Assembly: GCF_017051705.1 (NCBI RefSeq)
Contig: NZ_JAFIDJ010000001.1
Coordinates: 558,001 to 622,000, forward strand
Direction of reading: 5' to 3'
Length of the DNA stretch: 64,000 nucleotides
Source: Algoriphagus lutimaris
GTDB lineage: Bacteria > Bacteroidota > Bacteroidia > Cytophagales > Cyclobacteriaceae
In this document: piece after piece, positions 21,297 to 60,326 of the stretch
Position numbering within the stretch: position 1 is the first letter of the stretch
How the letters are laid out: each line of letters starts with the position of its first letter
Position numbers and translations under genes: made by a program
Notes under the pieces: generated by a model
What the model was told of the DNA's origin: nothing
What the model saw: only the letters and a program-made list of their open reading frames with translations
Database searches by the model: none

Positions 21297-21574
21297 TGGT
21301 GAATTTTCTTGATAGAGATTTGAATACGAAAGGCTAAAATCTGTTTGCTTCATTCCCCATACTCTTTCTAATTCATACTTAAAGATGGATAGATTTTGTT
21401 TGAGAGTCATTTTCATTCTTTTAAATCACCTCTTACACCCTAATACTTGAAATACATCCTGATAAAACTGTAATTTAACTTTCTCTTATTGTGAATTCGT
21501 AAAATTCACCCTTCTTTTCTGTTAAAATGTTTAAGTTTGCCCAGTTTTTGACGAAGATTATTAAAAATTCATTT

Positions 21575-22387
21575 ATGCGGAGATTCCCAATTGGGTTGAT
21601 ATATTTTATTGCCCTGATAACTGTGACATCATGTATTTCCAATGAGAAAATTATTTATCTCCAAAACCAAGAAGGTGAGACGCCTATTGAGGATGGAGAG
21701 TTGGTGACTTACGAGATTCCGGAATACAAGCTGCAGTACAACGATATCATTGATGTGAACATTCAAACGGTGGATGATATGATCCAAAATGGATTCAATA
21801 ACAAAGCAATGGGGGGAGTATCTGCACAAATGGGAAATGTTGCCTCGCAATCAGGAGGCGATATTTATTATATGACAGGGTATACGGTGGATAATGAAGG
21901 TAAAATAAGGCTTCCAATAGTAGGTGAAGTGGTGGTGAAAGATAAAACTTTAGAAGAAGCACGAATTGCCATTGAAGAGAAATTAAGAGTATACGTGACC
22001 ACAGAATTGTATGTCAAAGTAAAATTGGGAGGAATCAGATATTCAGCTATAGGGGAATTTAGAAGGCCTGGAAAATTTGTGGTGCTACAGGACAGAATGA
22101 CGATTTTTGAGGCAATTGCCAATGCGGGAGATCTGACCACAGTGGCCAAAAGAAGTGATGTATTATTGATCAGACAATACCCTGAAGGAACCAAGTTACA
22201 TAGAATTGATTTATTGGACAGAAAAATTGTGGAGTCACCTTTTTATTTCATCCAGCCCAATGATCAGATTTATGTGGAACCCATGAAAGTACGTGAAACA
22301 GGTACTGGTGAAAATACAGCTCAGTCTCTTGCATTGATTTTTTCAGGGATTTCTGCCATGGCCCTCATTCTTAATTTAATCAAATAA
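21575..22387 (+). CDS. wza: Polysaccharide export lipoprotein (Wza family)
   Basis: This is an outer-membrane auxiliary protein for Wzx/Wzy-type capsule export. From the ATG at 21575 the protein is 270 residues with the signal M-R-R-F, a hydrophobic core and lipobox T-S-C20; an ATG 16 codons upstream (21527) would give an unusually long leader. The Poly_export domain (Y-K-L-Q-Y-N-D-I-I-D-V) is followed by SLBB-type repeats (G-Y-T-V-D-N-E-G-K-I-R-L-P-I-V-G, I-G-E-F-R-R-P-G). A C-terminal hydrophobic segment (A-L-I-F-S-G-I-S-A-M-A-L-I-L-N) may span the outer membrane, as the Wza helix does. It lies 5 bp before wzc, so the two are translated together. Confidence 0.92.
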   Translation: MRRFPIGLIYFIALITVTSCISNEKIIYLQNQEGETPIEDGELVTYEIPEYKLQYNDIIDVNIQTVDDMIQNGFNNKAMGGVSAQMGNVASQSGGDIYYMTGYTVDNEGKIRLPIVGEVVVKDKTLEEARIAIEEKLRVYVTTELYVKVKLGGIRYSAIGEFRRPGKFVVLQDRMTIFEAIANAGDLTTVAKRSDVLLIRQYPEGTKLHRIDLLDRKIVESPFYFIQPNDQIYVEPMKVRETGTGENTAQSLALIFSGISAMALILNLIK

Positions 22388-22392
22388 GTTAT

Positions 22393-24837
22393 ATGTACCC
22401 CAATACTCCAAACCCAGCAAATTCGGGTCAGAATCCATTTATGGTACAAAAGGAAGATGAAATTGATTTAAAGGTCTTATTGTTTAATTACCTGCAATAT
22501 TGGCCTTTGATTCTTGCATTTATGTTTGCAGGATTAATTTCAGCATTTTTATTCAATAGATATGCAACCAATATTTATAGCGTTCAATCGAGTGTACTCA
22601 TTGAAGATGAAGAGCCTTCTTTGGGTATGGATTTATTCGAATCGGCAGGATTTGGCTTGCAGGGCAAGAATAATATTGAAAATGAAATTGGAATCTTAAA
22701 GTCCTTTTCTCTAGCCGAGGAGACCATCTCTGAGTTGAATTTGAATGTTCAGTATTTCGGAGAAGGTTTTATCACAACGAATCAACTATATGACAAGCTT
22801 CCAATCATCGTTTCAGTAGATTGGAAACAACCTCAATGGGTGGGAGGAATGTTCCGAATTGAAGTGTTGGATGAAAATTCTTTTGAATTACAAATCGAAA
22901 ATGATGAATTCAGTATTTATGATCCTGCAGACCCTTATTATAAATCCAAATTGGAAGATGCTTCTTTGAAGAAATCAGTTTATTCTTTTGGGGAGCAAAT
23001 TGAAGAAGAGAATCTTTCTATTAAAATCAATAGTATTTATGCGAATCCAGGGGAGAATTATCAGTTCAGAATAACTGATACACCTACTCTAGCATTGAAA
23101 TACAAAGAGGAATTATCAGTTTCTCCAATCAACAAACAAGCATCTATTCTATCATTAAATTTAGAAACTCCTGTTAGGAGACTGGGTGAAGACTACATCA
23201 ATAAATTGATGGAGATGTACCTAAAGCGGGAATTGGATGAGAAAAATAGGGCCTCTGAAAGCACCATCCGCTTTATTGAAAACCAATTGTTGGGGATTTC
23301 TGATTCTTTGGAAATATCTGAAAATAGATTGCAACAATACCGTTCCGAAAATAATGTCTTTAACCTTTCCGAAGAGGGTTCTGTAATTTTTGAACGGTTA
23401 CAGGATTTGGAAAAACAAAAAGGGGAAACAGAAGTAAGTCTCAAATACTACCAAACGCTAAATTCCTATCTTGAAAATAGTCAAGGGGGAGAGTTGGTAG
23501 CTCCATCTATCATTGGAGTAACAGACCCTTTATTAAACTCTTTGGTCAACGCCTTAGCGGAGCTCCAAGCGGATCAAATTCGTTTGAAATCCAATTTTTC
23601 GGATCAAGCACCTGCCGTACGGGAAAATTCCACTAGGATCGCCAACACCAAAAAGCAATTGCAGGAGAATGTGAATCTGGCATTAAGCAATACTCAAAAT
23701 GTCTTGGCAGACTTGAATAATCGAATTCGATTAATACAATCGGATATTAACTCTCTTCCCAAGACGGAAAGAGACTTGATTGGAATTCAGCGTAAGTTCA
23801 CGATCAACGAGAATATTTATGTGTATTTGCTTCAAAAGAAAGCGGAAGCTGAAATCACCAAAGCTTCTAATATGCCCAAGAACACCATATTGGACTTTGC
23901 GAAAGCCGGTCAAATTCCTGTTGCTCCCAAGCGTACCTTAAACTTATTGATAGGATTGATTTTAGGTTTGATTGTTCCCATTGGATTTATTACCATCAAA
24001 GATTTTCTAAATACTAAAATTGAGGATCCTAAGGAATTGGAAAATCAGATCAAGGTTCCTTTAATTGGAATGGTAGGAAGAAATAATTCAGATGATGCGC
24101 TGCCTGTGTTAAACAATCCTCGATCCACCGTGACAGAATCCTTCCGCTCCCTTCGAGCAGACATGACCTATTTAAGTCAGCAAAAGGAAAATTTAACCAT
24201 CTTATTCACCTCCTCTGTTTCTGGAGAAGGGAAAACTTTTGTCTCTATTAATATGGCTTCTGTTTATGCCTTGATGGGTAAGAATACCATATTGATTGGG
24301 TTAGACTTACGAAAACCTAAAATCGCGGAAGATTTTGGATTGCCCAATGACAAGGGAATGAGTACTTGTCTGAGTTCGGATACCCCTTGGCAATCCGTAG
24401 TGAAATCGTCGGGGTATCAGGATTTTGACGTGATCTTGTCGGGTCCTATTCCACCGAATCCGGCAGAATTATTACTTCAAGATAAATTCATTCAAATTAT
24501 CAACGAAATTAAGCAAGTATACGATGTGGTGGTTTTTGACTGTCCACCTGTCGGTTTGGTCTCTGAAACCAAGGAATTATTCGCTTTGGCAGATATTTCA
24601 TTCTATGTATTCCGTCAAGGCTATTCCATGAAGGGGAACACTCAGATTTTGAATAATTTGGTTGAAAAAGGGGGGGTAACCAAGATTTATGGCATTTTGA
24701 ATGACATGCATATCGACAAAGGCTATGGCTATGGTTACGGCTATGGTTACGGTTATGGATACGGAGGGAATTCTTATGGCTACCATGAAGAAGCTTCTCC
24801 ACTTCCCTGGTGGAAAAGAGCCTTGAGAAGAAAATAA
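22393..24837 (+). CDS. wzc: Wzc-type chain-length regulator and tyrosine autokinase
   Basis: This 814-residue inner-membrane protein controls polymer length and export. A first membrane segment at about 28-48 begins the Wzz domain, a long periplasmic coiled-coil region follows, and a second segment lies at about 516-540. The cytoplasmic BY-kinase has Walker A S-G-E-G-K-T (about 610), Walker A' I-G-L-D-L-R-K-P, and Walker B V-V-F-D-C-P-P. The C-terminus carries the tyrosine cluster, here seven Gly-Tyr pairs in a row then N-S-Y-G-Y. This cluster is the autophosphorylation site and cycles with a phosphatase not seen in the window. Coupling with wza is tight (5 bp). Downstream lies the non-coding repeat array. 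Confidence 0.95.
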   Translation: MYPNTPNPANSGQNPFMVQKEDEIDLKVLLFNYLQYWPLILAFMFAGLISAFLFNRYATNIYSVQSSVLIEDEEPSLGMDLFESAGFGLQGKNNIENEIGILKSFSLAEETISELNLNVQYFGEGFITTNQLYDKLPIIVSVDWKQPQWVGGMFRIEVLDENSFELQIENDEFSIYDPADPYYKSKLEDASLKKSVYSFGEQIEEENLSIKINSIYANPGENYQFRITDTPTLALKYKEELSVSPINKQASILSLNLETPVRRLGEDYINKLMEMYLKRELDEKNRASESTIRFIENQLLGISDSLEISENRLQQYRSENNVFNLSEEGSVIFERLQDLEKQKGETEVSLKYYQTLNSYLENSQGGELVAPSIIGVTDPLLNSLVNALAELQADQIRLKSNFSDQAPAVRENSTRIANTKKQLQENVNLALSNTQNVLADLNNRIRLIQSDINSLPKTERDLIGIQRKFTINENIYVYLLQKKAEAEITKASNMPKNTILDFAKAGQIPVAPKRTLNLLIGLILGLIVPIGFITIKDFLNTKIEDPKELENQIKVPLIGMVGRNNSDDALPVLNNPRSTVTESFRSLRADMTYLSQQKENLTILFTSSVSGEGKTFVSINMASVYALMGKNTILIGLDLRKPKIAEDFGLPNDKGMSTCLSSDTPWQSVVKSSGYQDFDVILSGPIPPNPAELLLQDKFIQIINEIKQVYDVVVFDCPPVGLVSETKELFALADISFYVFRQGYSMKGNTQILNNLVEKGGVTKIYGILNDMHIDKGYGYGYGYGYGYGYGGNSYGYHEEASPLPWWKRALRRK
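24721..24762 (+). repeat. Hexamer tandem repeat coding for the Wzc Gly-Tyr tail
   Basis: Seven consecutive 6-bp units of the form GGN-TAY encode seven Gly-Tyr pairs. Such a tract can gain or lose units by slippage without a frameshift and so change the number of phosphorylatable tyrosines. Confidence 0.8.
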
Positions 24838-24839
24838 GA

Positions 24840-26190
24840 TCTGAAGTACGAAGTAAGAAACACGAAGTGTGAAGGGTAAGTACGAAGTTTGAACTACGAA
24901 TTGCCAGAGTATACTCAAACGTTCTTTGGTCATTTCGAAGGATAAAAGACTGAGAAATCTCGATTCAAAGGTAGAAGTACGACATTCAATTATACCCTCA
25001 AACGATCTTTGGTCATTTCGAAGGATAAAAGGCCGAGAAATCTCCATTCAAAGGGTGAAGCACGAAGTTTGAAATACGAATTACAATAGAATCCTTAAAC
25101 GATCTTTAGTCATTTCGAAGGATGTAAGACTGAGAAATCTATATTTAAACGGAGAAGTACGAAGTTGGAAGTACGACATTCAATTATACCCTCAAATGAT
25201 GTTTGGTCATTTCGAAAGGTGAATGCCTGAGAAATCTCCATTCAAAGGGTGAAGCACGAAGTTTGAAATACGAATTACAATAGAATCCTTAAACGATCTT
25301 TAGTCATTTCGAAGGATGTAAGACTGAGAAATCTCTATTAAAAGGTAGAAGTACGAAATTCAATTATACCCTCAAATGATCTTTGGTCATTTCGAAAGGT
25401 GAATGCCTGAGAAATCTCCATTCAAAGGGTGAAGCACGAAGTTTGAAATACGAATTACAATAGAATCCTTAAACGATCTTTGGTCATTTCGAAGGATAAA
25501 AGACTGAGAAATCTCCATTCAAAGGGCGAAGCACGAAGTTTGAACTACGAATTACAATAGGATCCTTAAGCGATCTTTAGTCATTTCGAAAGGTGAATGC
25601 CGGAGAAATCTCCATTCAAAGGGTGAAGCACGAAGTTTGAAATACGAATTACAATAGAATCCTTAAACGATCTTTAGTCATTTCGAAGGATAAAAGAATG
25701 AGAAATCTATATTTAAACGGAGAAGTACGAAGGTGGAAGTACGAGATTCAATTATACCCTCAAATGATCTTTGGTCATTTCGAAGGGTGAATGTCTGAGA
25801 AATCTCCATTCAAAGGGCGAAGCACGAAGTTTGAAATACGAATTACCAGAGTATCCTTAAACGATCTTTAGTTATTTCGAAGGATAAAAGACTGAGAAAT
25901 CTCTATTCAAAGGTAGAAGTGCGACATTCAATGATACCCTCAAACGATCTTTGGTCATTTCGAAGGGTGAATGTCTGAGAAATCTCTATTCAAAGCTAGA
26001 AGTACGAGATTCAATTATACTCTCAAACGATCTTTAGTCATTTCGAAGGATGTAAGACTGAGAAATCTATATTTAAAGGGAGAAGTACGAAGTACGAAGG
26101 TGGAAGTACGAGATTCAATTATACCCTCAAACGATCTTTGGTCATTTCGAAGGGTGAATACCCGAGAAATCTTAAGCCAAGTGTAGAAGT
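24840..26190. repeat. Fourteen-copy interspersed tandem array, non-coding
   Basis: A core holding GTCATTTCGAA, a fixed-length loop and GAGAAATCT occurs 14 times in the same orientation. Core starts are 24929, 25012, 25109, 25206, 25303, 25386, 25483, 25580, 25677, 25774, 25871, 25954, 26037 and 26141. Spacings are 83, 97, 97, 97, 83, 97, 97, 97, 97, 97, 83, 83 and 104 bp. Each core can fold: ATTTC pairs with GAAAT and an outer CTTTG with CAAAG. Linkers are of a short type (TTCAATTATACCCTC) and a long type (GAATTACAATAGAATCC). Unit lengths are not multiples of 3 and stops occur in all frames, so it is not coding. It sits between wzc and the next gene of the capsule locus. Confidence 0.93.
24843..24900. 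repeat. Heptamer microsatellite, GAAGTAC type
   Basis: At the left edge of the array the sequence reads as imperfect 7-bp units: GAAGTAC, GAAGTAA, GAAACAC, GAAGTGT, GAAGGGT, then AAGTAC, GAAGTTT, GAACTAC. The same heptamers recur in the linkers, for example four in a row at about 26080-26108. Confidence 0.75.
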
Positions 26191-26494
26191 GTACTCAAGT
26201 TAAAGGAAGAGAGAGGAATTTTGGATTCAAAAACATGATTTACTAAATCTAACATCATTTATCTTACATCTTTTCCTGCCCTCATTTCCCCCAATTTGTT
26301 CCATCCTTCTGTAGAAAAGATAGGTGTTGATTTTCCTCAATAATCAGGTTTACACATGTTTAGGAATTGGTGTCTTTTTTGAGAAATAGAGGATGATGTG
26401 AAGATTATTTTAATAATGAAATGCATTTCTTGGTATATGAAATTTCCATTTAAAAATAGGATAAAAAATGAGTAAAAAAACTACTCACTTTCCT

Positions 26495-26502
26495 TATCTT
26501 TG
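26495..26502 (+). promoter_or_regulatory. Bacteroidota -7 promoter element, capsule biosynthesis operon
   Basis: TATCTTTG is a perfect TAnnTTTG match. No clear TTG at the -33 position was found. Transcription would start near 26510, about 385 bp before the first gene, just ahead of a terminator-like hairpin. Confidence 0.5.
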
Positions 26503-26517
26503 GCTTCTGTAAGAGAT

Positions 26518-26553
26518 AAAAAAGCCCTAAATTTTAGCCTGGGGGCGCTTTTT
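26518..26553 (+). terminator. Leader hairpin / possible attenuator
   Basis: AAAAAGC (26519-26525) pairs with GCTTTTT (26547-26553), and CC next to the stem can pair with GG after one bulged C. The hairpin ends in five Ts. It lies only some 10-45 nt downstream of the predicted transcription start and 340 bp before the first gene, so it may act as an attenuator for the capsule operon or end a transcript from upstream. Confidence 0.5.
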
Positions 26554-26892
26554 GACATTATTTCCAAACTACCTAATGTATTCTTAATCAGGCTACAACT
26601 AGTTTTTTAAAAGCTAAGTTTACTTTCGGATTTTAAGATTTGAATTCTCCAAAATTGAGATGTGAAATTCAAAAAACAATTCGAATGGGACTGAAAGGGC
26701 GAAGCTGTGCAGTGAGTTGAAAATTGAGAATAAATAGTTTAAAGATTTGCCAAATAATTAGCTGTTTAATGACTGCTGCAATTGATTATTAAGTTTATAG
26801 GAAGGTATTATCCAGTTTTACTATTGAATCTGAAGTTTTAAACTTTTAATAAAAATGGAATAACCAAATATTATTTGCTATTGAATTTAAGC

Positions 26893-28203
26893 ATGTTACA
26901 AGATATTCAAGAAAGTAAAATTGCCATCATTGGCCTAGGCTATGTAGGACTTCCATTAGCGGTAGCCTTTGCCGAAAAATATAAAACAGTTGGATACGAT
27001 ATTAATCCAAGCAGAGTGGATCAATTGCAAAAAGGCCATGATAGAACTTTAGAAGTAGCGGATCAGGATTTACAAAATGTATTGGTGAAAACGAGTGTAG
27101 AACTTGATAAAAAAGGAAGTGGTCTACTAATTACAGATGCCATTCTACCTGTCACCTCTTCCAATATTTATATAGTTACCGTTCCAACTCCGACTGATAA
27201 ACACAATCGACCAGTACTTACTCCTATGATTAAGGCATCAGAAATGATAGCAAAGATATTGAAAAAAGGAGATGTGGTGATCTATGAATCCACGGTTTAC
27301 CCGGGTGTGACAGAAGAAGAGTGCGTGCCTGTTTTGGAAAAAATTTCTGGTTTGAAATACAATGAGGACTTTTTTGCGGGTTATTCACCTGAGCGGATTA
27401 ATCCAGGGGATAAGGAGCATACAGTAACCAAAATTCTAAAGGTTACCTCTGGTAGTACTCCTGAGGTAGCAGATTATGTGGATCAACTGTATAAATCAGT
27501 GATTACTGCTGGTACGCATAAAGCATCTTCCATCAAGGTTGCAGAAGCAGCCAAAGTCATAGAAAACTCACAACGGGATATCAATATTGCTTTTGTAAAT
27601 GAATTAAGTAAGATTTTTAATCTTCTGGATATAGATACCCAAGAAGTTCTCGAAGCGGCTGGAACCAAATGGAATTTTCTTCCTTTCCGTCCAGGACTAG
27701 TCGGAGGGCATTGTATAGGAGTAGATCCATTCTATTTAGCTCAAAAGGCTCAAGAAGTAGGCTATCATCCAGAGATTATTTTGGCAGGTCGCCGACTCAA
27801 TGATTCCATGGGGAAACATGTGGCTACTGAGACGATTAAGCATATGATGCGCAAGGATCTCAAAGTAATCGACTCCAAAGTGTTAATTCTAGGCTTTACC
27901 TTTAAGGAGGACTGTCCGGATGTAAGAAACACACGAGTGATTGATATTTACAATGAATTGAAATCTTTTGATATAGATGTTTGTGTCTATGACCCCTGGG
28001 CAGATGTGGCAGAGGTAAAACATGAATATGGGATTGAAATCATCAATGAAGGCTCAAAGCCTGTATTGGAAGATTATTCAGCCATCATACTTGCAGTAGG
28101 GCATCAGGAGTTTAATACCTGGAATATTCAGAAATCTGATAATCAGGTGGTCTATGATGTAAAGGGAATGCTGAGTAAGAAATTGGTGGACTCTAGGCTT
28201 TAA
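26893..28203 (+). CDS. tviB: UDP-N-acetylglucosamine 6-dehydrogenase-type nucleotide-sugar dehydrogenase (TviB/WbpO-like)
   Basis: This 436-residue UDP-sugar dehydrogenase family enzyme oxidises C6 of a UDP-hexosamine to the uronic acid using two NAD+. The N-terminal Rossmann motif is [10 protein letters not shown] and the catalytic Cys lies in [12 protein letters not shown]. The overall sequence resembles Vi-antigen TviB/WbpO rather than UDP-glucose dehydrogenase. The ATG at 26893 is preferred over an upstream in-frame TTG (26875). The gene is followed after 2 bp by a TviC/WbpP-like epimerase; the pair would supply UDP-GalNAcA. It opens the biosynthetic part of the capsule operon behind a long leader. 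Confidence 0.9.
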
Positions 28204-58958: not shown

Positions 58959-60326
58959 ATGGAATATGCAATCGTGGATATAGAAACTACAGGAGGCACC
59001 GCAAAAAATTGTGGGATCACTGAAATAGCTATTTTGATCCATGATGGCAATGAAATCATAGCCGAATTTGAAACCCTTATTAATCCTGAACAAGATATCC
59101 CTATTTACATCACTGGTCTTACTGGAATAGATAATGGAATGGTTCATGATGCTCCGACTTTTGATGAGCTAGGGGAGAAATTATGGAGTTTACTACATGG
59201 AAGGGTGTTTGTAGCCCATTCGGTCAATTTTGATTACGGCTTTGTAAGAGAGAGCTTCGCTAGATTCGGTAGGGAGTTCAAAGCTGATAAGCTATGTACC
59301 GTGCGTTTAGCCAGAAAAGTTATCCCCGGTCTAAGTTCTTATAGCTTGGGAAGAATTTGCGAGCATAGAAATATCCCTATTTTAGCAAGGCACCGAGCTA
59401 TGGGAGATGCAAGAGCTACTGCCATCTTATTTGATGAAATGATCAAGGAAAGGCCTGAAATCATTTCTGCTTCCTTAAAAAAGAATTCGGGAGAGGCCTT
59501 CTTACCACCGAATATTTCGCTTTCAAAATTTAGGCAAATACCGGAAAAATGCGGTGTTTATTATATGCTGAATGAAAGAGGAAAAGTGATTTATGTGGGT
59601 AAAGCAATCAATATCAAAGAGCGATTTAAGAATCATTTTTCAGGAAACTTATTGCCAGGTCTTAAACAAAAGCTAAAATCGGAGGTGTTTGATTTGAAAT
59701 GGGAATTGACTGGCTCTGAAATGATGGCATTATTGGTAGAGGCATTAGAAATAAAGCGATTATGGCCTAAGTATAATTCTGCACTTAAATTACCAAAAAC
59801 CATGTGGGGGTTGTTTCAATACACAGATGGTTCCGGGTTTATCCGATTTCAAATCGCCAAAGTAACGAAACACTTACGACCTTTGGAATCATTCCTTTCT
59901 TCTGAAGAAGCCCATGCATTTTTGAAGGATGGAATAAAATCCTTTGGCCTTTGTCCAAGGCTATGTGGCTTGAGAAAAGCTCCCTGCAGTGAGGGAGGTT
60001 TTTTAAGCTGTCAGGGTACATGTAACTCACAACTTCCTCCTCAAGAATATAGTCAGAATGCGAAGGACTTTATCAATTTGATAGAGGAGAGTAAACGCGA
60101 GATTCTTGTGAAGTTTAAGGGGAGGTCTGATCAAGAAATCGCCGCATGTGTTTTTGACAGGGGAGTTTTAAAAAGCTATGGATATTTCAGCGAAATGACT
60201 GAGTTGGAATCCATATTGGAGCAACTTGAACCGGTTCCTACTGTTCCGGAAACTTTTTATATTCTGAAACAATTTCTTCCCTCACTTGCTCCGGAACAAA
60301 TTCAGGTTTTAAACCCTGTCTCTTGA
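58959..60326 (+). CDS. DEDDh exonuclease fused to a GIY-YIG / UvrC-like (Cho-type) nuclease
   Basis: This 455-residue DNA-repair protein has an N-terminal exonuclease with D7-I-E9-T, a middle Asp region (H-S-V-N-F-D) and H145-R-A-M-G-D150, which makes the DEDDh set complete. Residues about 195-275 form a GIY-YIG domain (G199-V-Y ... I-Y-V-G-K). A cysteine group C332, C336, C343, C351, C355 (A-P-C-S-E-G-G-F-L-S-C-Q-G-T-C) has the C-x6/7-C-x3-C spacing seen in UvrC, where an iron-sulfur cluster binds. It therefore combines 3'-5' trimming with UvrC/Cho-type incision. No UvrB-binding or C-terminal endonuclease domain is present. Confidence 0.9.
   Translation: MEYAIVDIETTGGTAKNCGITEIAILIHDGNEIIAEFETLINPEQDIPIYITGLTGIDNGMVHDAPTFDELGEKLWSLLHGRVFVAHSVNFDYGFVRESFARFGREFKADKLCTVRLARKVIPGLSSYSLGRICEHRNIPILARHRAMGDARATAILFDEMIKERPEIISASLKKNSGEAFLPPNISLSKFRQIPEKCGVYYMLNERGKVIYVGKAINIKERFKNHFSGNLLPGLKQKLKSEVFDLKWELTGSEMMALLVEALEIKRLWPKYNSALKLPKTMWGLFQYTDGSGFIRFQIAKVTKHLRPLESFLSSEEAHAFLKDGIKSFGLCPRLCGLRKAPCSEGGFLSCQGTCNSQLPPQEYSQNAKDFINLIEESKREILVKFKGRSDQEIAACVFDRGVLKSYGYFSEMTELESILEQLEPVPTVPETFYILKQFLPSLAPEQIQVLNPVS

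Follow-up and report, generated by a model that had tools for sequence, protein, structure and literature searches.

A non-coding array of 14 hairpin cores in a capsule locus of Algoriphagus lutimaris is probably a tandem-amplified cluster of a REP-like hairpin, the cognate repeat of a GIY-YIG nuclease of about 90 amino acids. The array lies in the window (the whole stretch of 64,000 nucleotides that was analysed) between a wzc-like gene and a UDP-sugar dehydrogenase gene (Table 1). A small GIY-YIG nuclease appears to be the partner of the core. At the level of gene surroundings, both the association of core and nuclease gene and its clade specificity are demonstrated.

Anatomy of the array and of its hairpin core

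A repeat search across the window bore out the earlier note on the geometry of the array: 14 copies of a 32-nt core stand in a single orientation (+), with successive spacings of 83, 97, 97, 97, 83, 97, 97, 97, 97, 97, 83, 83 and 104 bp. A strict core pattern matched 13 of them in the window, all on the + strand and all of 32 nt, and nothing in 100 shuffles; the copy that it missed, core 11, carries GTTATTTCGAA. A degenerate heptamer repeat (with units such as GAAGTAC, GAAGTTG and GAAGCAC) occurs in the linkers, which are 51, 65 or 72 nt long, lengths that differ by whole 7-bp units. The exact spacings of 83, 97 and 104 bp thus arise because the linkers differ by two and one heptamers. Cores come in two kinds, A (with GGATAAAAGACT) and B (with GGGTGAATGTCT), which alternate strictly from copy 3 to copy 14. 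Over the whole array there are 11 alternations out of 13, a number reached by 1,575 of 100,000 shuffles, and this fits the amplification of an A-B pair.

Table 1. The array, its cores and the neighbouring genes, in window coordinates.
Feature	Position	Strand	Evidence
Whole array: 14 cores of 32 nt, linkers of 51/65/72 nt	24843..26190	+	
5' lead-in, GAAGTAC-type heptad repeat without core	24843..24905	+	period-7 autocorrelation 0.49 over 24838-24920
Core 1, type A	24929..24960	+	
Core 2, type A	25012..25043	+	
Core 3, type A	25109..25140	+	
Core 4, type B	25206..25237	+	
Core 5, type A	25303..25334	+	
Core 6, type B	25386..25417	+	
Core 7, type A	25483..25514	+	
Core 8, type B	25580..25611	+	
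Core 9, type A	25677..25708	+	
Core 10, type B	25774..25805	+	
Core 11, type A, GTTATTTCGAA variant	25871..25902	+	
Core 12, type B	25954..25985	+	
Core 13, type A	26037..26068	+	
Core 14, type B, GGGT/ACCC stem fully paired	26141..26172	+	
wza-like polysaccharide export gene	21527..22387	+	Poly_export, PF02563
wzc-like gene, directly upstream of array	22393..24837	+	GNVR + AAA_31
UDP-glucose/GDP-mannose dehydrogenase family gene, first after array	26875..28203	+	

The array is neither coding nor a CRISPR, as had been noted before: its linkers are repeats of one another, not the unique spacers that separate identical repeats in a CRISPR. The open reading frame on the minus strand that spans the array start (24598-25047) gave no Pfam family at E≤0.001, and window positions 24000-27000 gave no Rfam match at E≤1. 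No U-tract follows a core in the array, and no nuclease gene lies within it. The two-step hairpin that the earlier note drew for each core stands in its inner arm, ATTTC/GAAAT, which is present in 14/14 cores, but not in its outer arm throughout. Judged by eye, exact CTTTG/CAAAG is found in only 6/14, TTTG/CAAA in one and TTTA/TAAA in four; three cores (copies 8, 11 and 14) have no good match there.

Beyond the array, the core is a dispersed hairpin repeat of the form GTC-ATTTC-GA-stem-loop-stem-GA-GAAAT-C, with an inner loop that is often of GNA type (GAA, GCA or GTA between the stem halves). The search of the genome and its relatives that had been proposed as a check gave 29 strict copies at several sites in the window genome and strict cores in 30 of 73 Algoriphagus genomes, with no control match in any genome. 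Elsewhere, cores occur in both orientations on the contig, facing each other. A 128-bp unit of the array, searched against the window genome, found its own array, one core-length match (E 0.003) and otherwise only matches at E>0.5; against 58 genomes, two others matched, over the core only. Among the genomes compared, the array is specific to A. lutimaris. No clean empty site for a single core was found.

The inner stems of the TTC cores covary. Across 75 distinct inner strings (length classes with at least three strings), Watson-Crick or GT pairs occupy 172 of 341 symmetric positions, against 127.6 (sd 5.6) and a maximum of 146 when the 3' halves were re-dealt 2,000 times; 83.6% of the positions pair if G.A is allowed. 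In a slid register the Watson-Crick and GT pairing falls to 20-40%, against 50% in register, and this control carries weight too because re-dealing ignores relatedness. The sister TGC core, with only 17 distinct strings, gave no covariation above shuffles (29 versus 28.4). The kept paired stems of the TTC cores show a constraint on the hairpin. GA faces GA within the core, an arrangement that suggests tandem sheared G.A pairs in a strand-specific hairpin.

Folding energy was rejected as support for the type A core, and covariation was used instead. Standard energies show no hairpin preference for type A (DNA z 0.57, RNA z -0.24), and a 36-nt core is likewise not favoured (z 1.18). Type B folds better than its shuffles (DNA z -1.9, RNA -2.0). 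Its complement also folds better (z -1.4 and -1.2), so that the energies lend no support to a strand preference.

A small GIY-YIG nuclease gene beside the hairpins

The window genome carries two small GIY-YIG genes 95-102 kb upstream, in another polysaccharide cluster and beside hairpin repeats. The nuclease of the matching clade (clade 1) is thus encoded in trans, about 95 kb from the array (G000:C1:487551-487814). Both products match PF01541 (P0001 of clade 1 at E 1.4e-17, P0002 of clade 2 at E 5.2e-15), and Y4, Y15, G17, R25, H29, E61 and N80 are invariant in 8/8 GIY-YIG proteins; the partner gene therefore has a GIY-YIG domain with its conserved residues, some of which we take to be catalytic positions. 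The solved relatives that a sequence search returned at E≤0.01 are two UPF0213 proteins only. A further GIY-YIG domain lies in the window at 59547-59729, inside a larger frame (469 aa open); there is no core near it.

Within the genus, 58 genomes gave a match, and we compared 30 loci, the best match in each of 30 of these genomes. Identity to P0001 (≥64%, 53-58% and ≤47%) defined the clades, and a tree was looked at only afterwards. With exact arms and a distance of up to 1.5 kb, all 8 clade-1 genes have a TTC core and none a TGC core; all 12 clade-2 genes have the TGC sister core (GTCATTGCGA..GCAATC) and none a TTC core; and none of the 10 clade-3 genes has either. Gaps between clade-1 gene and core measure 6-111 bp, and in L120 one core overlaps the gene end. 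The association of 8/8 against 0/22 has a chance probability of 1.7e-7 if the loci are independent; four of the eight share neighbouring genes, so these are not eight independent insertions.

The ATTGC core was sought after its start had been noticed beside the clade-2 gene of the window genome. Five further clade-2 genes agree with the pattern, namely that gene itself, which has TGC cores on both sides, and 4/4 extra loci, at which no exact ATTTC core was found. The distinction depends on exact arms: with one mismatch allowed, TTC and TGC cores are indistinguishable and 5/10 clade-3 loci also give a half-site. With a looser pattern, the clade-2 gene of L126 has one TTC-like match at a distance of 792 bp. 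Next to the clade-2 gene of the window genome lies an imperfect TTC-like core.

The same link is visible in whole genomes, in a less orderly form. The eight clade-1 genomes contain 3-29 strict cores each (median 11.5); for the remaining 65 genomes the median is 0. No clade-1-like match was found in five genomes that hold 7-20 strict cores (G014, G032, G043, G048 and G057): clade 1 scores at 7e-32 or better, and the best E values of these five run from 8e-9 to 9.5e-24. The two core systems are not cleanly separate at genome level, since TGC cores are also more numerous in clade-1 genomes (p 0.014) and TTC cores in genomes with clade 2 only (p 0.006). The densest surroundings of a clade-2 gene noted here are those of L130 (G057:C1:2293011-2296274), with 48 ATTGC hairpin matches, some of them nested, on both strands over 3.3 kb; the G057 genome has 63 strict TGC cores.

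A wider scan compared genome contigs with the clade-1 alignment and took the best 80 of at least 534 confirmed loci, which by their record titles are mostly from Bacteroidota, with few others. A hairpin GTCATNNN..N'N'N'ATC lies within 600 bp of 77 of these 80 homologues, against 1/80 in flanks shuffled once per locus by a simple shuffle. Five of the 80 repeat genus genes already counted, which leaves 72/75 as new. From the gene outwards, hairpin density falls over successive 200-bp bins from 7.76 to 3.71, 1.35, 0.51 and 0.22 per kb, and beyond 800 bp it is 0.1-0.5 per kb; the hairpins are therefore concentrated around the gene and do not fill the genome at large. They number 409 in total, some of them nested. 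On the loop side of the 5' arm, 305 of 327 distinct hairpins have GA, and 290 have it on the loop side of the 3' arm; neither GA was demanded by the search pattern. By arm, the first GA is present in 238/244 TTC, 15/15 GTC, 15/15 CTC and 17/27 TCC hairpins. The pattern does require GTC; the base in front of it is T in 182, A in 67, C in 40 and G in 38.

A strict phylogenetic code in the arm triplet was considered and rejected, since the correspondence is only coarse. In a quick tree of 96 columns with poor support, TGC and clade 3 each fall on one side of a branch, and the TTC arm needs 17 changes against a shuffled mean of 33.4; GTC and CTC arms are scattered over this tree and other arms are loosely clustered at most. 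Rows dropped from it were L188 and L199 (short), L127 (in-frame stop) and L114 and L116-L119 (duplicates of named loci). Single odd arms (L218, L232) may be due to chance.

The array in its capsule locus

The link between core and polysaccharide loci that the earlier note had suspected is found as an enrichment. In seven genomes, the distance from a core cluster to a Poly_export gene is at most 25 kb for 8/42 clusters (1.9 expected), at most 50 kb for 14/42 (3.3 expected) and at most 100 kb for 22/42 (5.4 expected). This count covers seven of the 30 core-bearing genomes, with mostly rounded genome sizes, the window array entered once and G048, whose list of cores was incomplete, left out. The other 20 clusters lie on other contigs or farther than 100 kb from Poly_export; G043, an eighth genome and a fragmented one, adds 0/7 within 100 kb, bringing the totals to 14 (within 50 kb) and 22 (within 100 kb) of 49. 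Of the opposite picture, scattered cores with no tie to polysaccharide genes, the dispersal is thus real, but the tie exists as well, as an enrichment and not a rule because of these distant clusters.

The gap after wzc was considered as a hot spot and rejected. In a survey of 47 post-wzc loci (46 with wzc, 41 distinct, one without a definable gap), hairpins occur at 2/41 distinct wzc genes: one gap holds the window array and the other the nuclease gene itself. In G009 (L149, G009:C1:1551000-1570900), a clade-1 gene and hairpins lie 919 bp downstream of a wzc-like gene that is 34% identical to the window wzc, a placement that resembles that of the array. The orthologous site in A. iocasae (L254, wzc 91% identical) has a period-7 repeat of similar flavour and no core.

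Downstream, the array ends about 300 bp before the promoter-like module of the biosynthetic operon and so does not lie in the leader of that operon. The module (window 26469-26708) opens with the palindrome TGAGTA..TACTCA (26469-26487) and a TATCTTTG box (26495-26502), which presumably fits the Bacteroidota -7 consensus; TGGGACTGAAAGGGCGAAGCTGT follows about 190 nt past the box, at 26686-26708. The module first came to light in five post-wzc regions, where 23-27 bp are 96-100% identical. Its 18-mer GGACTGAAAGGGCGAAGC occurs exactly in 47/73 genomes (44 of the 51 good ones) in 1-3 copies each, with a control count of 0. Among 28 contexts of the 18-mer, TG precedes it in 27 and TGT follows in 22; GAGTA..TACTC is found up to 320 bp upstream in 19, and the box then follows in 11. 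In nine genomes, 12 of 15 copies have a Poly_export gene no more than 24 kb away, and the other three are on contigs without one. The string AAAGGGCGAAGC of this leader element (window 26694-26705) also recurs in two array linkers, probably by chance among GAAG-rich sequence.

We take the TGGGACTGAAAGGGCGAAGCTGT/GGACTGAAAGGGCGAAGC element to resemble the ops element GGCGGTAGC, and the GCGAAGC that it holds is presumably a stable DNA mini-hairpin. Each of nine genomes searched has exactly two NusG-domain matches; those of the window genome (G000:C1:2089253-2089528 and G000:C8:1456828-1457160) are both away from Poly_export genes. By analogy, one trans-acting NusG paralogue and 1-3 ops-like elements per genome would be in keeping with an RfaH-like system. 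Such a paralogue would contrast with the operon-borne UpxY in the portion of PMC7593976 consulted.

Origin of the array and known systems

How could a dispersed hairpin become an array? We infer that the nuclease would recognise the folded core in single-stranded DNA, at replication forks or in incoming DNA, and nick it. Repair of the nick with template switching could then carry cores to new sites in trans and raise their number locally. In the window, the GAAGTAC heptad repeat after wzc would have been there first and then received a core; an A-B core pair would have formed and been amplified, and linker lengths would have drifted by slippage in 7-bp steps. A likely, if weakly supported, outcome would be more recombination at the border of conserved export genes and variable capsule genes. 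Recombination between capsule loci, one of the roles first suggested for the array, is possible, and a benefit to capsule exchange is clearly less likely than the pairing of enzyme and repeat.

In wider terms, we lean slightly towards the view that, in Bacteroidota and beyond, GTC-tagged hairpin repeats have small GIY-YIG nucleases as their dedicated enzymes, which would form a second, non-RAYT class of enzyme plus REP. Each clade would read the arm triplet (TTC, TGC, CTC, GTC, TCC and others) of a common tandem-G.A hairpin, and the targets would be amplified into recombination-prone arrays at the borders of capsule loci.

The balance is even on whether the host gains anything. The GIY-YIG gene and its hairpins may be a selfish or neutral minimal mobile unit and the array a by-product without host benefit, the capsule locus merely tolerating insertions. 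This would suit the patchy presence of cores (30/73 genomes), the species-specific array and the enrichment in a variable region. The retention of paired stems, a constraint on the hairpin, weighs against it, though a selfish element would need that too. Such a unit is compatible with the enzyme-repeat part of our explanation and denies the benefit only.

An RNA element is unlikely. In this reading, the 14 hairpins would fold as a structure at the 3' end of the wza-wzc transcript, where they would serve its stabilisation, termination or processing and set it apart from the biosynthetic operon. All 14 cores do stand in operon orientation directly after wzc, the promoter-like module (26469-26502) follows, and core 14 gives a good RNA fold (-8.5 kcal/mol, z -2.0). 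However, the post-wzc gaps of relatives have no cores, cores elsewhere lie in both contig orientations, and type A is a weak RNA fold (z -0.24) with no U-tract after the core. Transcript separation or processing, put forward in the earlier note, is not upheld as the main role: cores elsewhere run in both directions and surround the nuclease gene, and the array is outside the leader of the biosynthetic operon.

We consider it very unlikely that the cores are ordinary REPs moved by a RAYT (IS200-like Y1 transposase) and that their link with GIY-YIG is incidental. Like GTAG REPs, they are hairpins that have a short unpaired tag at the 5' end and occur both scattered and in clusters, and the window genome has three Y1_Tnp genes. 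Yet 0/3 of these have a complete core nearby, and RAYT mobilisation was rejected for the window genome on this count; none was found within about 2 kb in L035-L037, and none at L030-L032, with one half-site only. The best Y1 match of the window genome (G000:C1:926648-926992) has one in-frame TGA and no complete core near it. The association with GIY-YIG, moreover, is tight and clade-specific, and the available part of Di Nocera 2013 (PMC3733652) reports no transposase gene regularly flanked by CGTC repeats. REP/RAYT systems, as the part of Nunvar et al. 2010 (PMC2817692) at hand presents them, share a gene flanked by repeats and copies dispersed in trans; their enzyme is a Y1 tyrosine transposase, whereas here it is a GIY-YIG nuclease. 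A plain tandem satellite made by replication slippage, with no enzyme partner, would account for the whole-heptamer linker variation and the heptad repeat at the orthologous site, but is scarcely tenable as it leaves the cores unexplained, with their isolated hairpins across the genus, their covariation and their setting around GIY-YIG genes.

If the GIY-YIG explanation is true, the seeming want of a dedicated transposase for CGTC repeats would be answered. In a broad range of bacteria such repeats regularly centre on one small nuclease gene, and in one genus two arm sequences are matched by two clades of the nuclease. Which enzyme spreads the repeats, and how it is aimed, can now be put to a direct test, for which oligonucleotides of 32 nt and proteins of about 90 residues are needed. 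Should the arrays raise recombination as well, they would offer a mechanism for the swapping of capsule genes.

The closest enzyme may be Ssn, a small GIY-YIG nuclease of Neisseria said to have appeared in Nature Communications in 2025, which reportedly cuts the NTS repeat in single-stranded DNA and affects natural transformation. The partner gene differs from Ssn in its Bacteroidota clade, in the arm sequence and in the GA/GA architecture. Ssn nucleases are probably the same kind of enzyme.

Among top-ranked literature, in a search whose coverage excluded most subscription papers, we found no published account of a GIY-YIG/hairpin association in Bacteroidota, and the core DNA strings returned no title on such repeats among the top-ranked results. 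In the portions consulted, the RepRanger paper (PMC12306157) does not mention GIY-YIG or RAYT, the GIY-YIG review (PMC1564403) does not mention UPF0213 or palindromes, and PMC9465073 is not about this association.

CGTC-tagged REPs, which include Neisseria dRS3 and Rickettsia RPE-4/RPE-6, are described in the part of Di Nocera, De Gregorio and Rocco 2013 (PMC3733652) consulted as short palindromes with an unpaired end tag CGTC (often TGTC, also CCTC) and complementary AT at the first two stem positions; they are reported there in Bacteroidetes and without a dedicated transposase. By the same partial source, the core shares with them A and T as the first two stem bases, clustering in some genomes and the lack of flanking transposase genes, it may share the unpaired end tag, and it is likewise dispersed in many copies (29 in the window genome, 30/73 genomes). 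It departs from their stem of 8-9 bp and loop of 4-5 nt, having a 5-bp outer arm, GA/GA and a variable inner stem with an often GNA-type loop, and unlike them it has a GIY-YIG gene as its regular neighbour. NIMEs (dRS3 plus RS), in the excerpts of PMC3898611 at hand, form arrays of 200-2700 bp that are linked with genes for surface structures; a role in promoting recombination is proposed for them. Like our intergenic array, they combine short inverted repeats with interspersed repeated linkers; their dRS3 is ATTCCC(N8)GGGAAT, whereas the array has ATTTC/GAAAT arms, a single orientation, fixed 32-nt cores and heptad linkers, and does not contain the dRS3 sequence. We therefore file the core neither as a CGTC REP nor as dRS3/NIME, since it departs from the sequence or stem definition of each; the array is most likely a relative of CGTC REPs and of the Neisseria dRS3 arrays.
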